The notes under the pieces were generated by a model. The model had not been told where the DNA came from. It saw only the letters and a list, made by a program, of their open reading frames with translations, and did no database searches. Below, one piece after another: positions 1 to 24,529 of a stretch of 64,000 nucleotides of DNA. Source of the stretch: Diaporthe sp. PMI_573 (lineage: Eukaryota > Ascomycota > Sordariomycetes > Diaporthales > Diaporthaceae); contig JAJTUP010000145.1 of NCBI GenBank assembly GCA_021399435.1, positions 27,927 to 91,926 of the forward strand, given 5' to 3'. Position 1 is the first letter of the stretch. Each line of letters begins with the position of its first letter. Both the position numbers and the translations under genes were made by a program.

Positions 1-115
1 TATCAACAACTCGGCTAGGAGCAGGACAAAACATGCAGCAGAGGCTGCTACTTTGGTTGTGAAGATGCAAAGCGGGATGAAGACTAGAAAGTGGCTACAA
101 TTAACATTTCCAGTG

Positions 116-992
116 TAGGGTTCCGGTCGAGGTAATTTACCGAATGGTAATTTACCTATCTGACCAAAGTTTTTGACGTCATAAACTTCTAGGAATTTTA
201 CATGTCAAAAACCTCTCATTGGCCGATGTCCATATCATCCCCACTATTTTCCAAATCGGTCTCTTCCCAACCCCAGCCATCGACAACAGTAGAGTCTTGG
301 AAGGCGTTTTCTATCTTTACTAGCTGAGCAACATCAACTGTCTCCCAGTTTTTGACAACCATCGGTTCTGCCGCATTATCTTTCACCGTCTTGAGCCTCG
401 TGAGCACCCGACTGTTCATATAGGTGAAAGTGACCTTGTCAGTGCTAAGTGGACTAAGCCGATTCCGAAGCTTACAATGAAGGTAGTTCGTAGCACTGAA
501 GGAACGCTCTGAAGGAACAGAGTTCGCCAAGGATCCTAGAACTCTCCTTGCCAACGTAGCCAACTTGACTCCCATAGACCCAAAGTATCTCCACGCGCTT
601 AGGACGTAATAGTGAGAAGGCGTATGAGGAGTATTCGGCTGTTCTCGATAGATCCGCGAGGTTGGGCCAAAGAGAGCACCTTCGCGATCACGGAATCGAC
701 AAAACTCCCCAAAGAGCTGTTGGTACTCTTCGACACTAGTGTTTTCTTCTAGGAAGCAATGTGCTCTCTCCATAGTGTCAAGCCCAAGACCCTCCCCTAT
801 TGTTGTCCGTGGGTCCAGGGCAAATGCAAAGTAGTAAATGTCTGTCGTTTGGCCTTTCATCCTTTGGACTCGCCATTGCCTCAGCTCCGAGTAGTTGAAT
901 AAGAGGATCTTGGTTAGCCTCTTCAAGGGCGTCAACAAGGCAGCAGTGGTTCGACGTTTGGGACATCCTATTCCCGGACAAAGACAGACCAA
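116..992 (-). mobile_element. hAT element, 3' half with terminal region
   Basis: This is the 3' end of a hAT DNA transposon on the minus strand. It holds the C-terminal transposase exon (216-992) and about 100 bp of terminal sequence. The terminal region contains two ggtaatttacc motifs and the 18-mer gtttttgacgtcataaac at 169-186. The exact reverse complement of that 18-mer sits at 57259-57276, beside the 5' half of another hAT copy. The outer end is probably TAGGGTTCCG at 116-125, similar to TAGGGATGCG read inward from 57285. The 5' half is absent here. Confidence 0.6.
216..992 (-). pseudogene. hAT transposase, C-terminal fragment
   Basis: The open frame (258 codons) carries the hAT C-terminal dimerisation region. 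Around residues 150-195 it reads LGSLANSVPSERSFSATNY followed by KLRNRLSPLSTDKVTFTYMN, which is the classic hAT block that follows the last catalytic acidic residue. The BED zinc finger and most of the RNase-H-like catalytic core are missing, so this cannot encode an active transposase. The end near 992 is probably a truncation point, because an unrelated plus-strand coding remnant begins just beyond it. Family identity is secure; the element name is unknown. Confidence 0.8.
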
Positions 993-1003
993 GCTCTATA
1001 TAC

Positions 1004-1416
1004 CTTGGGAACTTCATGGAAGAAACACTCGGTTACATTCGAAATCGGTGTCAGGACGGGAACTTGGAGGCAAGATTGCGCACCCTAAGGAACAGACACG
1101 GCGAGGCAGTGGATACAGAGCTTGTCAAAGACGTCGTCACTGTCGTTTGGGACTGGTTCCATACGTCATCGACAACACGCACGCAGGCTGCGAGTCCGGA
1201 CCTGTTGAGGCAGATACTTCTTCTCAGTCAGACACGAGCAGTTCAACCACGTCCATTTCGGACCTCGGCATTCTACATAAAGGTGTCAACGTTGGTCGCC
1301 CTTGGCATTTGACGGACGTTCCCCATATGTATGGTTTTGAACCAGGCGGCTTATGGCCGGAAACATCATACCAAGACTTTTTGGACATTTGGGACCTGGA
1401 GGATGTAAGCACATGA
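1004..1416 (+). pseudogene. unidentified gene remnant (C-terminal part)
   Basis: Two overlapping plus-strand frames look protein-like but must be joined across a frameshift near 1190-1215. The first (from 1016) is rich in charged helices (MEETLGYIRNRCQDG..., VDTELVKDVVTVVWDWFH). The second ends in a plausible acidic C-terminus (YQDFLDIWDLEDVST, stop at 1414-1416). The ending resembles the acidic tails of fungal transcription factors, but there is no diagnostic domain. It abuts the hAT fragment and is probably a gene cut by that element. I do not recognise the family. Confidence 0.25.
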
Positions 1417-1540
1417 AGTTACTTGTTTTCTTTGGTAATCTCTTGCTCGGAAGCATTTCTATGTGATATATTTGGGTGGATCGCTATCAATTACCCGTGT
1501 ACTTTGACTCACCAGGGAATGGTTTGCTCAATTAGGACCC

Positions 1541-1856
1541 TGTCAATCCAGTCCTGTATTGCTGCTTGATCCAACCATGCGCTTGAGGCGCCTGCGGTTC
1601 CGCGACCGCCCGCGGCCTTGAAGGCCGCAGCTCCAGACTCACGTCGTCATCAAGGTCCGCCCGCTGTGCCACTCGCCTAGCCCACCACAACGACACCGTA
1701 GCTAGATATTTAAAGGGCAGACGCCTCTTTGTACCTTCTCTTGAAATCTCTTCTCTTGTCTTTCATTTTATTCTCCTGCAATATCTGCTCAACGCCCTCG
1801 TCATTAAAAACTTATGAGCTGGGATAATTACTAAATTCTAGTTTCGTTAGCTAACA
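1541..1856. promoter_or_regulatory. promoter-like or solo-LTR-like segment
   Basis: A GC-rich block is followed by a TATA-like tatttaaagg at about 1707-1716 and then a strongly CT-rich tract (about 1730-1775), as in fungal promoters and LTRs. No convincing coding sequence follows: the first ATGs open frames of only a few codons. The block can be framed as TGTCAATCC...AGCTAACA, which would suit an LTR, but no target duplication or retroelement remains nearby. It may be an orphan promoter or a solo LTR. Confidence 0.25.
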
Positions 1857-2502
1857 ATCGAATCCTCGCCACCTCGGACTAGATGGTCGCCGAGAATATA
1901 CGCTTCTAGTATCCCAGACATCTTGGCACAGTGTTATCAGATCTGGAGAGGGGGTTCTCAATGCAAGAACGAAATGATGGGAGCTTCCACAAATGTGGTG
2001 TGGCGGGTGTGCTGGTGGCGCTGGAAACGTGCCGAATGAATGAGGAACCTCAGGGTTAGCTTATAAGTATATAATAAAGCTATGTTTTAAATTGGAAGTA
2101 ATTAGGGTTTAAATCGATTTAGTTATTAATAAAAACTGAGGTAATGCTTTCCAAACCACAGTCATTACTGTACAAAATCCTAGCCAAGTTCTTTTATTTG
2201 CATGATAGTCATTTTGATAGGCGGCAGATCCTTGAGACTTTGGATACTCTTCGCGCGAGTGGAAAAATTACAGAGACATTGCAGAGCCTGTTCATTGAAG
2301 GCAGAGCTAGAGCCCGTGGAACGATGAGGAGAGAATTGTGATCATAGGCACGTGCAGCAGTGATCGGCGCCTGGACGTCCGCCTGATCCCCTCACATAAC
2401 TTCCACGTCCCTCCAACCATCACGTCAACCATCAACAACTGCACTCCAAAGCCCGCCACAAGGAACAGCAATATCGTTGAAGAAACACAAACCATTATCA
2501 CA

Positions 2503-4335
2503 ATGACCGGTGGAAAGGGCAAGTCCTCGGGCGGCAAGAGCTATGGTGGGAAGACGTCGGCCACCGATAGCCAAAAGAAGCAGCGGAGCCACTCTGCCCG
2601 TGCCGGTCACACTGCTCTCTCCTACGTCTGGGGCGAACCGGCACCGATTGAGACTATCATCCTCGATGGCACAAGTGTCGGTATCACAGCCAATCTGGCC
2701 TCGGCTTTGAGGGACACACGGGATCCAAGCCGCACGCATCGTATCTGGGCCGACGCCTTATGCATTGACCAGGCGAACACTGATGAGAGGTGAGCGAGGC
2801 GCCCGTCCCTCAGGATCTCCCCACCCGCCCCTTCCCCGACTTGTTGTTTATTTGCAGGTCCGATAGCGGTGGCTCAGGCCTTTATAATCGGACCTACTGA
2901 CCTTCAAAGAAACCAGCAAGTCCCACTGATGGGGCAGATTTATTCGTGCGCCAGAAGCACGATCATTCATCTGGGACCTGAGACCGAGGTTGTTAAAACT
3001 CTTTTCGCGGAAGACCCAAAGAGTCAAAACCTCGACCTCATATTAAAAGATCTGGTAAAACGTCCTTGGTTCAGCAGGACCTGGGTCTTTCAAGAGCTCG
3101 TGCTGTCAGCCGACCCCTGGGTACAAATGGGCAGACGACGCATTCGTTGGCGCGAAATGTGTAAACTTCTACTCCCAGTGACACCACATTCATCTGCTCC
3201 TCAGCCCTACCACGCATCGCAGGACTCTAGAGAGCAGATCCTACGGCAGATGGAAATGATCCGTGGTCGCGGATCAAACCGTGACTTGCTGAGCATACTC
3301 AATTTAAGGGCTGGCTGCCGCGCGACTGACCCCAGGGACGTGATATTCGCCCACATGGGTATGATAACAGACGAGCAGGAGGTTTCAAAATTCCTAAAAG
3401 TCGACTACAGAGCATCCATTAGAGACATTTATGTATCCGCGGCAAGGTACGCGCTGGCTTCGTTCGGCCTCGCCGTGACAGCTAGGAGCATCAAGAGACC
3501 ACAGGGATGGGCACATCTGCCATCTTGGGCCCCCGACTGGGGTCTCCACTCTTGGCCAGGCGACTTTCCCTGCAGGATGTCCCAGGATCTGCTCGCAGGC
3601 AACGGGGACTGTCGTACCTCAGTGCTCGTAATCCCGACCACGAATCCATCTCTCCATTATGTGCGGGTCTCTGGTAGCACTTTTCCTTGGTCCGGCCCTC
3701 TTGAGCACATTCACGGCGTGGGCAAATTGCTGCCGCAGGCATCAGAAATGGATCTTCGAAAAAAGTTAATGAGAGAGCTTGCTTTGGTGGAAGAGTGTCC
3801 ACGATTGGTATCGGACGAGGAATCGGGAGGGCTGGACGGCTCTTTCTTTTCCTGTGAGTTCTGGACTCCCCCGTACCAGCAGGGAACGTCGGCAGAGAAA
3901 GCGTCGTATATTCGGGACCTCCTGAAGAAGCACTACTATCTGCGGAATAATGGGCATAGACTTGGCTTGGACTTACCAATGAGAATCGTCATATCGCGAT
4001 CCGGTTACTGCGCGTTGGTCTCTGCCAATGCGCAATTCGGAGACATCATCGCCAATTGCCCCAAGGAGCAGTACGGCTATCTTCTTGGTGAGCAAATATT
4101 TGGCTACTCTGGCGACCGCAGAACAAAATTGCTCAGCTGTCTTCTCAGGCCGTCCCAGTGGGAAGGTGGCAAAAGCGTGGAAGACACTATTGCACGAATG
4201 ACGGGCCATCCTGCAACGCAGCTCAATGTAACTCATTGTGTGCTGGTCGACATTCTTGGCGAGACGGAGATGCATACCCTGCCACTGGATCTGAAAATGG
4301 CACCCGGAGACATCAATTGGCTGATTATACACTGA
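2503..4335 (+). CDS. HET-domain protein with histone H2A.Z-like N-terminal tail
   Basis: Predicted CDS is join(2503..2789, 2910..4335), 570 residues. The ATG at 2503 has a good context (cacaATGacc). Residues 1-35 start MTGGKGKSSGGKS and end SHSARAG; this closely matches the acetylatable N-terminal tail of fungal H2A.Z and stops just before the histone fold would begin. The next residues are the HET domain: TALSYVWGEP (37-46), WADALCIDQ (82-90), an EERxxQVxLMGxIYSxA-type block (95-110) and RPWFSRTWVFQEL (147-159). The intron runs from GTGAGC at 2790 to AAG at 2909; a nearer CAG at 2857 would break the frame. HET proteins trigger heterokaryon-incompatibility cell death in ascomycetes. The long C-terminal region is unassigned. 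The gene lies 885 bp upstream of a same-strand STAND gene. HET identity is firm; the histone-tail origin is a strong inference. Confidence 0.85.
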
Positions 4336-5220: not shown

Positions 5221-8200
5221 ATGGCGGAGCCCACCATCTCTCTGGAGGATATCTGGGCCGAGGCAGCGAAACGCTTTCAGGAAATCTGCGGCGAGTCACT
5301 TCAGAGAGGTGACGTGAAGAACTTCGATGATGTGAAGAATAAGATCGAAAATGTCAACAAGCAACCGTACGGCGCTAGTGATGAAGAAGACGACAAGTGG
5401 GATAAGGCGAAAAGCGTGGGCCTTCAATCTCTGAAATACATGAAAATGCTGCTTGGAGCCGCATCTCAGGCAGCTGTCTTTGTGAGTCTTCTTGTAGGGT
5501 GTTTTAAGGGAAACAAAGCTAATATTGCTAGATTCCTGTGCCGTCAGCTGCCGCCAACATCGCAGGCTCTGCTCTAAGCTTTGTTTTCGACGTACCTGAG
5601 AAAATCAAGGGCTACAATGACGCGGTGGATAGTGTCTTTACAGAAGTCTCTTCAGCCCTTTCACAGTTCCGGGTTTACCAGTCGATCGACAATATGAATC
5701 AACCATTGCTGATCGAGCAAATCCATCTCGTGATGGCCAGCATGGTCAAGATATGCGCGCATGTCGTGAAATATCGCCAGGGCCGGCGACGCGACCGGCT
5801 CAGGAGGCAGATTGCGGCTATCTTTGATGACAATAAGCCTCTGGACGCAGAGATGAGCGAGTTCAGGAGACTTTTACAGGCCCAGCGGGATGTTGAGGGG
5901 ACAGTGACCTTGAGCGTGGTGGTGAAGACGCAGTCTGGTGTCGCCCAGCTGCTGGAAAGCTTCGCGGTTTTCGCCAAGACGGCCGACGACACAAACCAGG
6001 GGGTGCACGCTCTCAAGGACGACAACGACCGCACCAAATCTCTCAACAATATTCGTGACACCTTGCAGATACCTTCGACTGTGCTCCTCCATACACGAAC
6101 CACGCAGACTTGCACCGACCACGCGTCCAAATGTTTGCCTGGCACCGGGTCCTGGATATGGACGGATGAGGCATTTTCCTCCTGGAAAGAAGGGAGTACA
6201 AAGGTTGAGGATCGTCAAGTGTCGAACGTCCTTGTCATCTCAGGCCCTCCCTCAAGCGGGAAGACTCTGGCCACCGCACAAATCATCAAGCACCTGGAGG
6301 AGGAGAAAGGCCGCACGTACGTTGCGCATTACTTTTTTCTGCCCGCCAGCAGGAAGGCAGACGAAGACAACAAGTATCCTGTTCACACATGCCTGCGCTA
6401 CATGGCCTTCCAGATAGCTAGGGTGGACGCGACTGTGAGAAAGGCGTTGGGAAAGGCGTGCGACTCGGCAGGTGCCTCGGTGTTGACGCGGAACACGTCT
6501 TCCAACCTTGATAGCTTGTGGTCAGAGTTCAAGATCGGAGGTTCAGGGTCGACTTACTACCTTGCTTTCGATGGGATCGAGAACCTGGATGATAAGGACC
6601 GCGATATGCTGCTGCGCTTTATCTTCAGCTCGAAATTGGCCGAAGAACCTGCCGGCCGTGTGCGAGTGCTGGTCAGCGGGACGGAGAAACTGCTAGACGG
6701 CCACTGTAAACCCAGCAGAGTGTGTCGAATCGATATGGAACGATACAATGAGAGGGATATGCGTCTGTACATCGAGGACAGACTCAACAAACAATCCTTA
6801 CTCCGGCATGCCAAGCCTGGGTCCATACAGCAGAAGGCAAGGAACAACGTACTAGCGAAATTGCCCCCAAAGGCAGCCGGAAGCTACTCTCAGCTACAAT
6901 TTGCATTGGACGAGGTGGCTCGGATGCTGAGTTCCCGGACATCCTTCGATGAGCTCGATAAAGTGTTGGATCAGGCTATGAACAGTCACGAGACAGCCAT
7001 CAAGGCCTTGCAGCGGTCCTTAACAGTTGAGGAGATTGAGGAACTGAATGAGCTACTGAAATGGGTCCATTTTGCCAACGATAGAATGACGGTCGCCGAG
7101 CTTGAATCAGCAATGGTAAGTGCATCTCATGCTCCTAAAGCTTCACCCCTGAGGATTGCTTTCACTTTACCCACTCATTTTGGAGGCCAAAGAGCTGATG
7201 CCTATTGTGAAGCTGCTGTATTCGGACAAAGAGTCCATTGGTCTCCTCGAGGACATAATCGCTAGCAAGTACTTGGCAATCCTCAAGATAGACACCTCAG
7301 CCGACGGCACGTTCGTTGAAGGCCAAGATGGAGCACTGGAGTACTTGCAAAAGGAGAAAGCGCACAAGGTTCGACACTCGAAGGACCAGCCCGTCATCAG
7401 TATGACAATCAACATCAGCAATGTGGACCAGGAGATCGTGGGCCATTTCCTGTGGGACTTGGCCCAGAAGGCAATCCGCGACCAGTTCCGATTCAACTTG
7501 GACTCAGCCTCGAATACTTCACACGCGAGGCAGATATCCATTGCCGTGGATGAGTTCGAGGCACACCATGCGCTAGTCATGCGAGCCTTCAAGTACTTGA
7601 CTGGAGAGCCCAATGAAGCAACCGACTTAATAGGGCGCTATCTCTTTTACTGGCTGCCGTACCATTTGGGCGTGCTCACGCAGCTTGACTACGAGGAGAA
7701 GGGATACCTGATGCCAGATGAGCAACTCGACATTGGGAAGAATCTTTATGAGCTCTTCAAGGACGCAGAGCTCTTCAATCGTCACAAAGCTACCGTGGAG
7801 CGTATCTGGTGGACTGCTGAAGAGATTGAGAAGGTGCACAAGTGGTTGATGAATTCGGCTGTCGTGCGGAGGGTGCCAAAGCAGTGGCGCGAAGAGGTTC
7901 AAGGCGCTCCAAGTCCTGTGAGGGGTTTCATGATGCCTTTCGTCAAAGCAGTCATCGAGAATTGGTTGAGAAGCCGTGACCGCTTGTCGGAAGAGGCGTC
8001 ATTGAATTACAGGGCTTGGATACGTGGTTTCATGGAGGTGGTGAGTTGACTACTGATGTCTTCTTTTTTCTTCCCCAGTATCCAAACGGACTGATCCTCT
8101 ACGGGTATGACTCTTTTCTCTACTGATTCATTAACATATCCTCCTGTTAGGACGACAAAACACAACAACGACCCCAGACACCTCGTACACCCCGTACAAA

Positions 8201-10160
8201 TGCAGCAAGCCCAAGTTCACCAAGCTCAACAGATAGCGAGCCTTCAATGACCGATTGGGAGCGTGTCAGTGCGTGGTGTCAGACCTTCCTGGACCTTCCA
8301 GAGTCTGAACTTGACTCTCTGTGGTGGGAACGCATTGCGCAGGGAGCACTCAATGAGAGCAGAGATTCCCCAGAGGTCGTTATGCCGCTTTTCAGGCGCG
8401 CACTAGCCCAAGAAAACCCAAGTTGGTATTGTCACTTTAGCCTGGCCGGATGTCATTATCAAATGGACCATCTGCCAGAGGCCATTTCTGAAGCCGAGCT
8501 AACACTGGAATCAACGAAATGCGAAGGTTGTAGGCCGACTCCAAGCGAGGCCGACCTAATGATGATTCATTTTCGGCTTGGGTCCTTGTACTTGGGAACC
8601 GAAAATATTCAACAGGCAACCGAGCAGTTTCTGATTGTCTCCAAGGGCTCAGATGTGTACTGGGCGGAACAAGGTCGAGTGGCTTACATGAAAGCAATCT
8701 TGAAAGCCAATGATTCAGAAGGGACAAAGAATATGCTCCGCAGCGCCTTTGTCACGGATGAGAGCGAAGCAAGCAAGGTGCGCGTCCTGAAGATGATTGC
8801 CAGAGATTATGAGCACAACTACACGATATCGAAGATCTTCGACATTACCAAGGGCGACCCTGAGCTTTTCAAGGAGCTTACGGCTATTTTCAAGAAGGCA
8901 ACAGATCCTCTGGCTTCGGGGCAAGACCAGGCCACCGACATGTCCAGAGATGACCGGTTTGCAGACCAGGAAGCCCGCGGGGTACTGCTCTATCATTGGG
9001 GAATGACAGTGGCATATAGGATGTCATCAGGGGACACCAAGTCCGTCACAAATGCGCTGACATTCTGGGAGGATTGCCGCGATCAGCTCCGGATCATCGG
9101 TGGTCCAGTGGCGTCCACGACCAGAACGAACGCTACCTCCCAGCTCGCCAAGTACTATTTCCAAAGCCTACTGACGGAACAAGGGCCCACGGAGCACTTC
9201 GATGGACTCTCAAAGCTCGCGGATGAAGATTCTAGCGCCGAGGGCGAAGACCCTGCCGGATATTTGGCCATACTTTATGCCCTCCGTGATGAAAAGGAGA
9301 AGGCGAAAAAGAGACTTTCGCGACGGATCAAGATCGCGATGGATATCCTGTCAGACGATCAGCCCCAGAACGACTATCTGGGACACCGGGCCCTTTTCAA
9401 GTGCCTGGCCTATTACCAGGATTTCGACAACGCAGCCGCTGCCTTGACGCTGATGGGAGCGCCGGACCTCATTACCAATGCTTTCCAGTTCGAGGATTAT
9501 GACTTTTCCGGTGAAGACGACGTCGGAAATGAAGATGGAGCCGGAAAAGATCTCGTTATCGAATTCCTGAAAAGTACGGGCAAAATGATCTCGCACCTGG
9601 TGAAGATGAAGGTCCCGGACTCCTCACAGCAGACTCGGCGTATCGAAGTGGCCAAGGAGGAAGTCGAGGGTCTGGTGGACACGGACTCTACAACATCCAA
9701 AGTCAATGTCATCCTAAAGGCACGCATATCAGCCCTGCAGGATTCACAGGCCTCGGTGATGCAAGAAGCGGTCTATACATATGGCTGGGGGTGCAACGGG
9801 CTTGGGCCTCCGGGCACGACGTGCGACAAACAGGCCGACTTTGACCACGAGTTTGTCCACTGCATCTACTGTGCCAGCTCTGACTTTTGCCCGGACTGTT
9901 TCAGGAAGCTGCGGCAACAGTCGACTCCGGCCATGCAGTGCAGCGCAGAGCACGTGTGGATAAAGATCCCGCGGCAGGGTAGTGACTTCTACCGAGGATC
10001 CGAGGCTAAGATCTTAAGGGTGCCAGTGGTCAGGCCCGTCGAGGGTGATAGGAATTTGTTGGAGGCGTGCTACGATGGAGGTCAAGGAATACAGGAGCTA
10101 ATGTTAGAGGCATGGAAGGCAAAATTGGCAAAGGAGTGGGACATAGCACTGGAAGAGTAA
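5221..10160 (+). CDS. Goodbye-NACHT-TPR STAND (NLR-like) protein with C-terminal zinc finger
   Basis: Predicted CDS is join(5221..5481, 5532..7115, 7186..8040, 8151..10160), about 1569 residues. Residues 1-130 begin with LEDIWAEAAKRFQE, as in the fungal STAND N-terminal Goodbye domain. The NACHT-type NTPase has Walker A GPPSSGKT at about 325-332 and Walker B YYLAFDG near 429-435. A helical winged region and then TPR-like repeats follow (about 910-1350). The C-terminus (about 1442-1490) carries CxxC pairs (FVHCIYC, DFCPDCF) and HVW, resembling a ZZ-type finger. Intron 1 (50 nt, GTGAGT..CTAG) and intron 3 (110 nt, GTGAGT..TTAG) are well formed; intron 2 ends in an unusual GAG. No stops or frameshifts occur, so the gene appears intact. 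Fungal STANDs sense ligands through their repeats, oligomerise and trigger programmed cell death or downstream effectors. Confidence 0.85.
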
Positions 10161-23689: not shown

Positions 23690-23790
23690 GTCGAGCCGCA
23701 GGAATATCCTAGGTATGGTGCTTTTGGATGGTGACCAGTGGCTTGACAATGCTATTGCACCAGTGGCTGAATGTCGTTCGGATTATAAAA
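23690..23790 (+). pseudogene. scrap of a paralogue of the downstream gene
   Basis: The plus-strand translation here reads MVLLDGDQWLDNAIAPVAE. It aligns with AVLLDHDEWLFELIKPVCE in the gene at 23897-24529 (shared V-L-L-D-x-D-x-W-L...I-x-P-V-x-E). Only this block remains, about 100 bp upstream of the intact gene's start, which suggests a decayed tandem duplicate. Confidence 0.5.
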
Positions 23791-23896
23791 AGGCTCGACC
23801 TCCCTCCTTTTTATCAGTCTGACTGTGATATGGCAGAGCTCCTCTCTACTACCTGACTTAACCTGCTTGACCAATTATCAAACCAAAGCAATCACT

Positions 23897-24529
23897 ATGC
23901 AATCCACCAAACTCATCAATATGGACCTCGAGGACGCTGAAGACTTTCAGTGTCTCCGAGACAGACTGTACAAGTCCTTGGGGTCATCTTTCTGGCAAAA
24001 CCATGAAGTGCCCAAGCTTCTTCAGTGGGTACGCACTGTCGATGCCATTCACAACTGGCTTGAAGAAGCAAAAGAGCACTACAGCCGGTTCATACAACAA
24101 CAAAACCGAGAGACGGAGAACTTCCATCTGCCCGACAGCTATATCCACGAGAGATTCGGGGAAGTCTACAGACGTCTCGGTGCTATGGACCCCTACCTTC
24201 CAAGGACATTACGGAATGGAACACATTATGGGCGCCTCGAAGAGGTTACCAGACGGATTGCTGATGAGCTTTGGAGCGGCAACTTCTATTGGTTGGACTG
24301 TTTTTCAGGGCTGATCAATGCGGTGCTTTTGGATCATGATGAATGGCTTTTCGAACTTATCAAGCCAGTGTGTGAATCTATCCAACCCATCACAGTGGAC
24401 CAGCACAGAATCGTGGATTTTCGCTGCCGCTGCAAGCGGTGCAATCGGGTTCACAGTGGCCAGCAGGAGAGGTCTCGATGGCGATGGTTTCTACCGGTAC
24501 TCATCATACTACTCGTCACATTGGGCTGA
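23897..24529 (+). CDS. hypothetical tail-anchored protein
   Basis: The product is 210 residues from the ATG at 23897 (cactATGcaa). The frame extends upstream, but that sequence resembles a promoter and 5' UTR. The N-terminal 160 residues are helical and charged (e.g. VPKLLQWVRTVDAIHNWLEE). A cysteine cluster, FRCRCKRCNRVHS, follows near residue 180. The protein ends in a hydrophobic segment with basic/aromatic flank, RWRWFLPVLIILLVTLG, typical of a C-terminal membrane anchor. There are no stops or obvious introns. I do not recognise the family. A broken paralogue block just upstream indicates local duplication. Confidence 0.6.
   Translation: MQSTKLINMDLEDAEDFQCLRDRLYKSLGSSFWQNHEVPKLLQWVRTVDAIHNWLEEAKEHYSRFIQQQNRETENFHLPDSYIHERFGEVYRRLGAMDPYLPRTLRNGTHYGRLEEVTRRIADELWSGNFYWLDCFSGLINAVLLDHDEWLFELIKPVCESIQPITVDQHRIVDFRCRCKRCNRVHSGQQERSRWRWFLPVLIILLVTLG

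Follow-up and report, generated by a model that had tools for sequence, protein, structure and literature searches.

The DNA analysed here, a window of 64,000 nucleotides from the fungus Diaporthe sp. PMI_573 (C52:27927-91926; assembly of 83.7 Mb in 217 contigs), contains a chimeric gene in which the start of a histone H2A.Z gene, encoding the N-terminal tail, is joined in frame to a HET gene. HET domains abound in fungi, where they belong to self-recognition and cell death. The H2A.Z-derived part is ~90% identical to H2A.Z genes of the same genome and the HET part is 75% identical to a paralogue. Both parent genes of the fusion are identifiable in the DNA, and the joint between them, which falls within codon 36, is in frame. 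Across the predicted intron the frame stays open for 570 codons, corresponding to a protein of 570 residues. The preliminary description had proposed such a fusion, and it is borne out at the DNA level: residues 1-35 are the H2A.Z tail, and the start context matches too. Word-based protein searches found no second example of an H2A.Z tail joined to HET. As predicted from the DNA, the chimeric gene is real, precise and apparently private.

The HET core is retained. Both halves of the Pfam profile PF06985 are matched, the two exons scoring 47.4 and 34.5 bits (curated cut-off, 22.5 bits), and 24 of 24 nearly invariant positions in a 62-row alignment are kept. The paralogue on contig C2, identified by sequence as NCBI protein P0012, is unfused. 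Comparison of the HET part with this paralogue gave a synonymous divergence (dS) of 0.76 and a nonsynonymous divergence (dN) of 0.20, the ratio of 0.26 being an average that also spans the time before the joint.

Features of the chimeric gene (window coordinates)
Feature	Position	Strand	Basis
Leader, partly homologous to the 5' leader of the main H2A.Z gene	2385..2502	+	Local alignment, BLASTN
H2A.Z-derived coding DNA, 35 codons and base 1 of codon 36	2503..2608	+	
HET exon 1, beginning at the TALSYVWG motif	2609..2789	+	DNA match to C2 paralogue; Pfam PF06985 positions 2-64
Predicted intron, GT...AG, with ACTGAC ahead of the acceptor	2790..2909	+	Mirrored in C2 paralogue
HET exon 2, including stop codon	2910..4335	+	Open frame; Pfam PF06985 positions 63-146

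The tail had previously been regarded as a gained N terminus. It is present, but it stands in place of ~50 native HET residues and was not simply added, a replacement that the earlier reading overlooked. The native segment is confidently predicted to form two strands. All six close relatives whose exon 1 could be read keep it, wholly or partly, ahead of ALSYVWG, and the motif lies at median position 54 in 56 alignment rows. The segment does not belong to the Pfam definition of the domain, and it is not universal among gene models, since in P0032, P0035 and P0092, three of the relatives collected, the motif already stands at 15-20.

The most serious alternative accepts the same DNA joint and regards the gene as a relic, silent or functionless, that is open only since it is young; we give this a substantial chance, somewhat short of even. 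The loss of a conserved segment predicted to hold two strands favours a relic, as do the private tail changes given below. Neutral drift was simulated with substitutions only (insertions and deletions not counted), and of 400 runs at each rate the HET frame remained free of stops in 225 (0.01 substitutions per site), 113 (0.02), 74 (0.03), 28 (0.05) and 4 (0.08). The first two counts speak for a relic, the 28 open runs at 0.05 against one. Moreover, where the other 11 sequences are invariant, the fusion shows 11 breaks in 175 columns, equal to the unfused C2 paralogue (also 11/175); ten other relatives show 0 to 12 breaks per 152-176 columns, nine of them at most 9, although these ten are mostly closer kin to one another. 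Taken together, the constraint data are compatible with either a relic of recent origin or a gene that is maintained. Three further points weigh against a working product. Four tail changes are private to the fusion and three of these alter the protein; three positions of the replaced segment are conserved in 55 of 55 rows, and the fusion product may therefore not work; and no annotated protein for the locus was found among the best 120 of 199 rows.

It is unlikely that the gene has been misread, with some other start or exon leading into the HET exon and the tail left untranslated. The frame does stay open upstream of the tail as far as 2311, but the sole other ATG in 2311-2502, at 2324, is out of frame, and neither window positions 1-2502 (best E 0.10) nor the 9.9 kb preceding the window contain a recognisable native HET N terminus.

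Capture of an H2A.Z leader together with its promoter had also been proposed, and of this the leader stands in part. Local alignment of 2385-2494 with H2A.Z positions -182 to -55 scored 74, a value that none of 200 block shuffles reached (maximum 68), and BLASTN matched 2418-2476 to the H2A.Z leader at 77% identity (E 3e-4). When the 60 nucleotides adjoining the ATG were omitted, the score was 49, matched by 12 of 100 shuffles; with at least 90 omitted, it was matched by 88 to 91 of 100. As judged by alignment, leader homology extends at most ~118 nucleotides 5' of the ATG, its distal part being weak and not significant alone. Full promoter capture, by which an H2A.Z-type promoter would drive the HET gene and the product would be nuclear, is improbable: the partial leader homology and the basic tail agree with it, but past the leader the similarity is no better than chance. 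On nuclear import, a structural study of H2A-H2B reportedly gives tail sequences resembling nuclear localization signals a minor role (PMC6453568). An assembly mis-join can be set aside as highly improbable, for although the joint is seen in a single assembly, the tail is ~10% divergent from each of the other H2A.Z copies that the genome was found to carry, and was therefore not misplaced from one of them.

The tail probably came from a second, multi-copy H2A.Z lineage rather than from the ordinary gene, because this lineage shares Arg28 with the fusion and the other H2A.Z-type tails retrieved have Gln (39/39); the preliminary description missed this likely donor as well. Counting against this donor, three tail sites are closer to the main H2A.Z, which the leader also resembles more than it does the second lineage. 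The second gene is present in four near-identical copies (L010-L013, on C7, C156, C78 and C81), each of which lies on a short contig or at, or close to, the end of a contig. The C78 copy encodes an intact, NCBI-annotated product of 143 residues, and the frame is disturbed in the C7 and C156 copies; the NCBI 'histone H2A.Z' proteins P0129 and P0143 are assigned to C156 and C78. The genome holds 12 further H2A.Z copies or fragments. Such spare pieces are a plausible source of parts for the chimera, which would likely have been built from a spare, duplicated H2A.Z copy.

H2A.Z fragments were also seen in other contexts. A several-kb repeat (L035-L038, on C168, C211, C159 and C184; pairwise identity up to 97-98%) carries ~116 bases of H2A.Z exon 2, at 90-94% identity, in four of four copies examined. 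On C153, a BED-finger-like frame slightly below the Pfam cut-off (L033:4341-4874) enters an H2A.Z exon 2-exon 3 fragment out of frame. Nearly identical open frames lie at window 23789-24529 and L033:396-1088, with a few kb separating the C153 copy from the H2A.Z fragment there. Close to the fusion, an NLR-type gene (5221-10160; NPHP3_N, with Goodbye slightly below cut-off) starts ~0.9 kb downstream on the same strand. A repeat at 929-1513, which its copies on C147 and C70 match at 98-99% identity, breaks off at 1513; four other copies run on alike.

Were the product a working HET death protein, its N-terminal strand pair exchanged for an acetylatable H2A.Z tail, histone-type modification or histone chaperones might govern its activity or place, and the H2A.Z pieces scattered through this genome would be raw material for such chimeras; we consider this a long shot. 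The mechanism of death by HET domains is described as unknown in one account (PMC10890737), and natural exchange of the segment preceding the TIR-like core offers a ready-made test of that segment's role. The fusion would also show clearly how a duplicated histone gene can give rise to a new gene, here in a genome with no visible sign of repeat-induced mutation in its repeats.

Compared with HET-domain proteins (PF06985), the fusion has both profile halves and all 24 nearly invariant positions, but a histone tail where the conserved segment before ALSYVWG stands. With histone H2A.Z it shares residues 1-35 and the start context; however, no histone fold follows the tail, and Pfam detects HET alone. 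For fungal NLRs, one study argues that N-terminal parts are exchanged between genes (PMC4986451). The fusion resembles these domain-reassorted NLR and incompatibility genes in having its N-terminal part swapped between genes, and differs from them in having acquired a histone tail instead of an effector domain, a tail that cuts into the HET segment.
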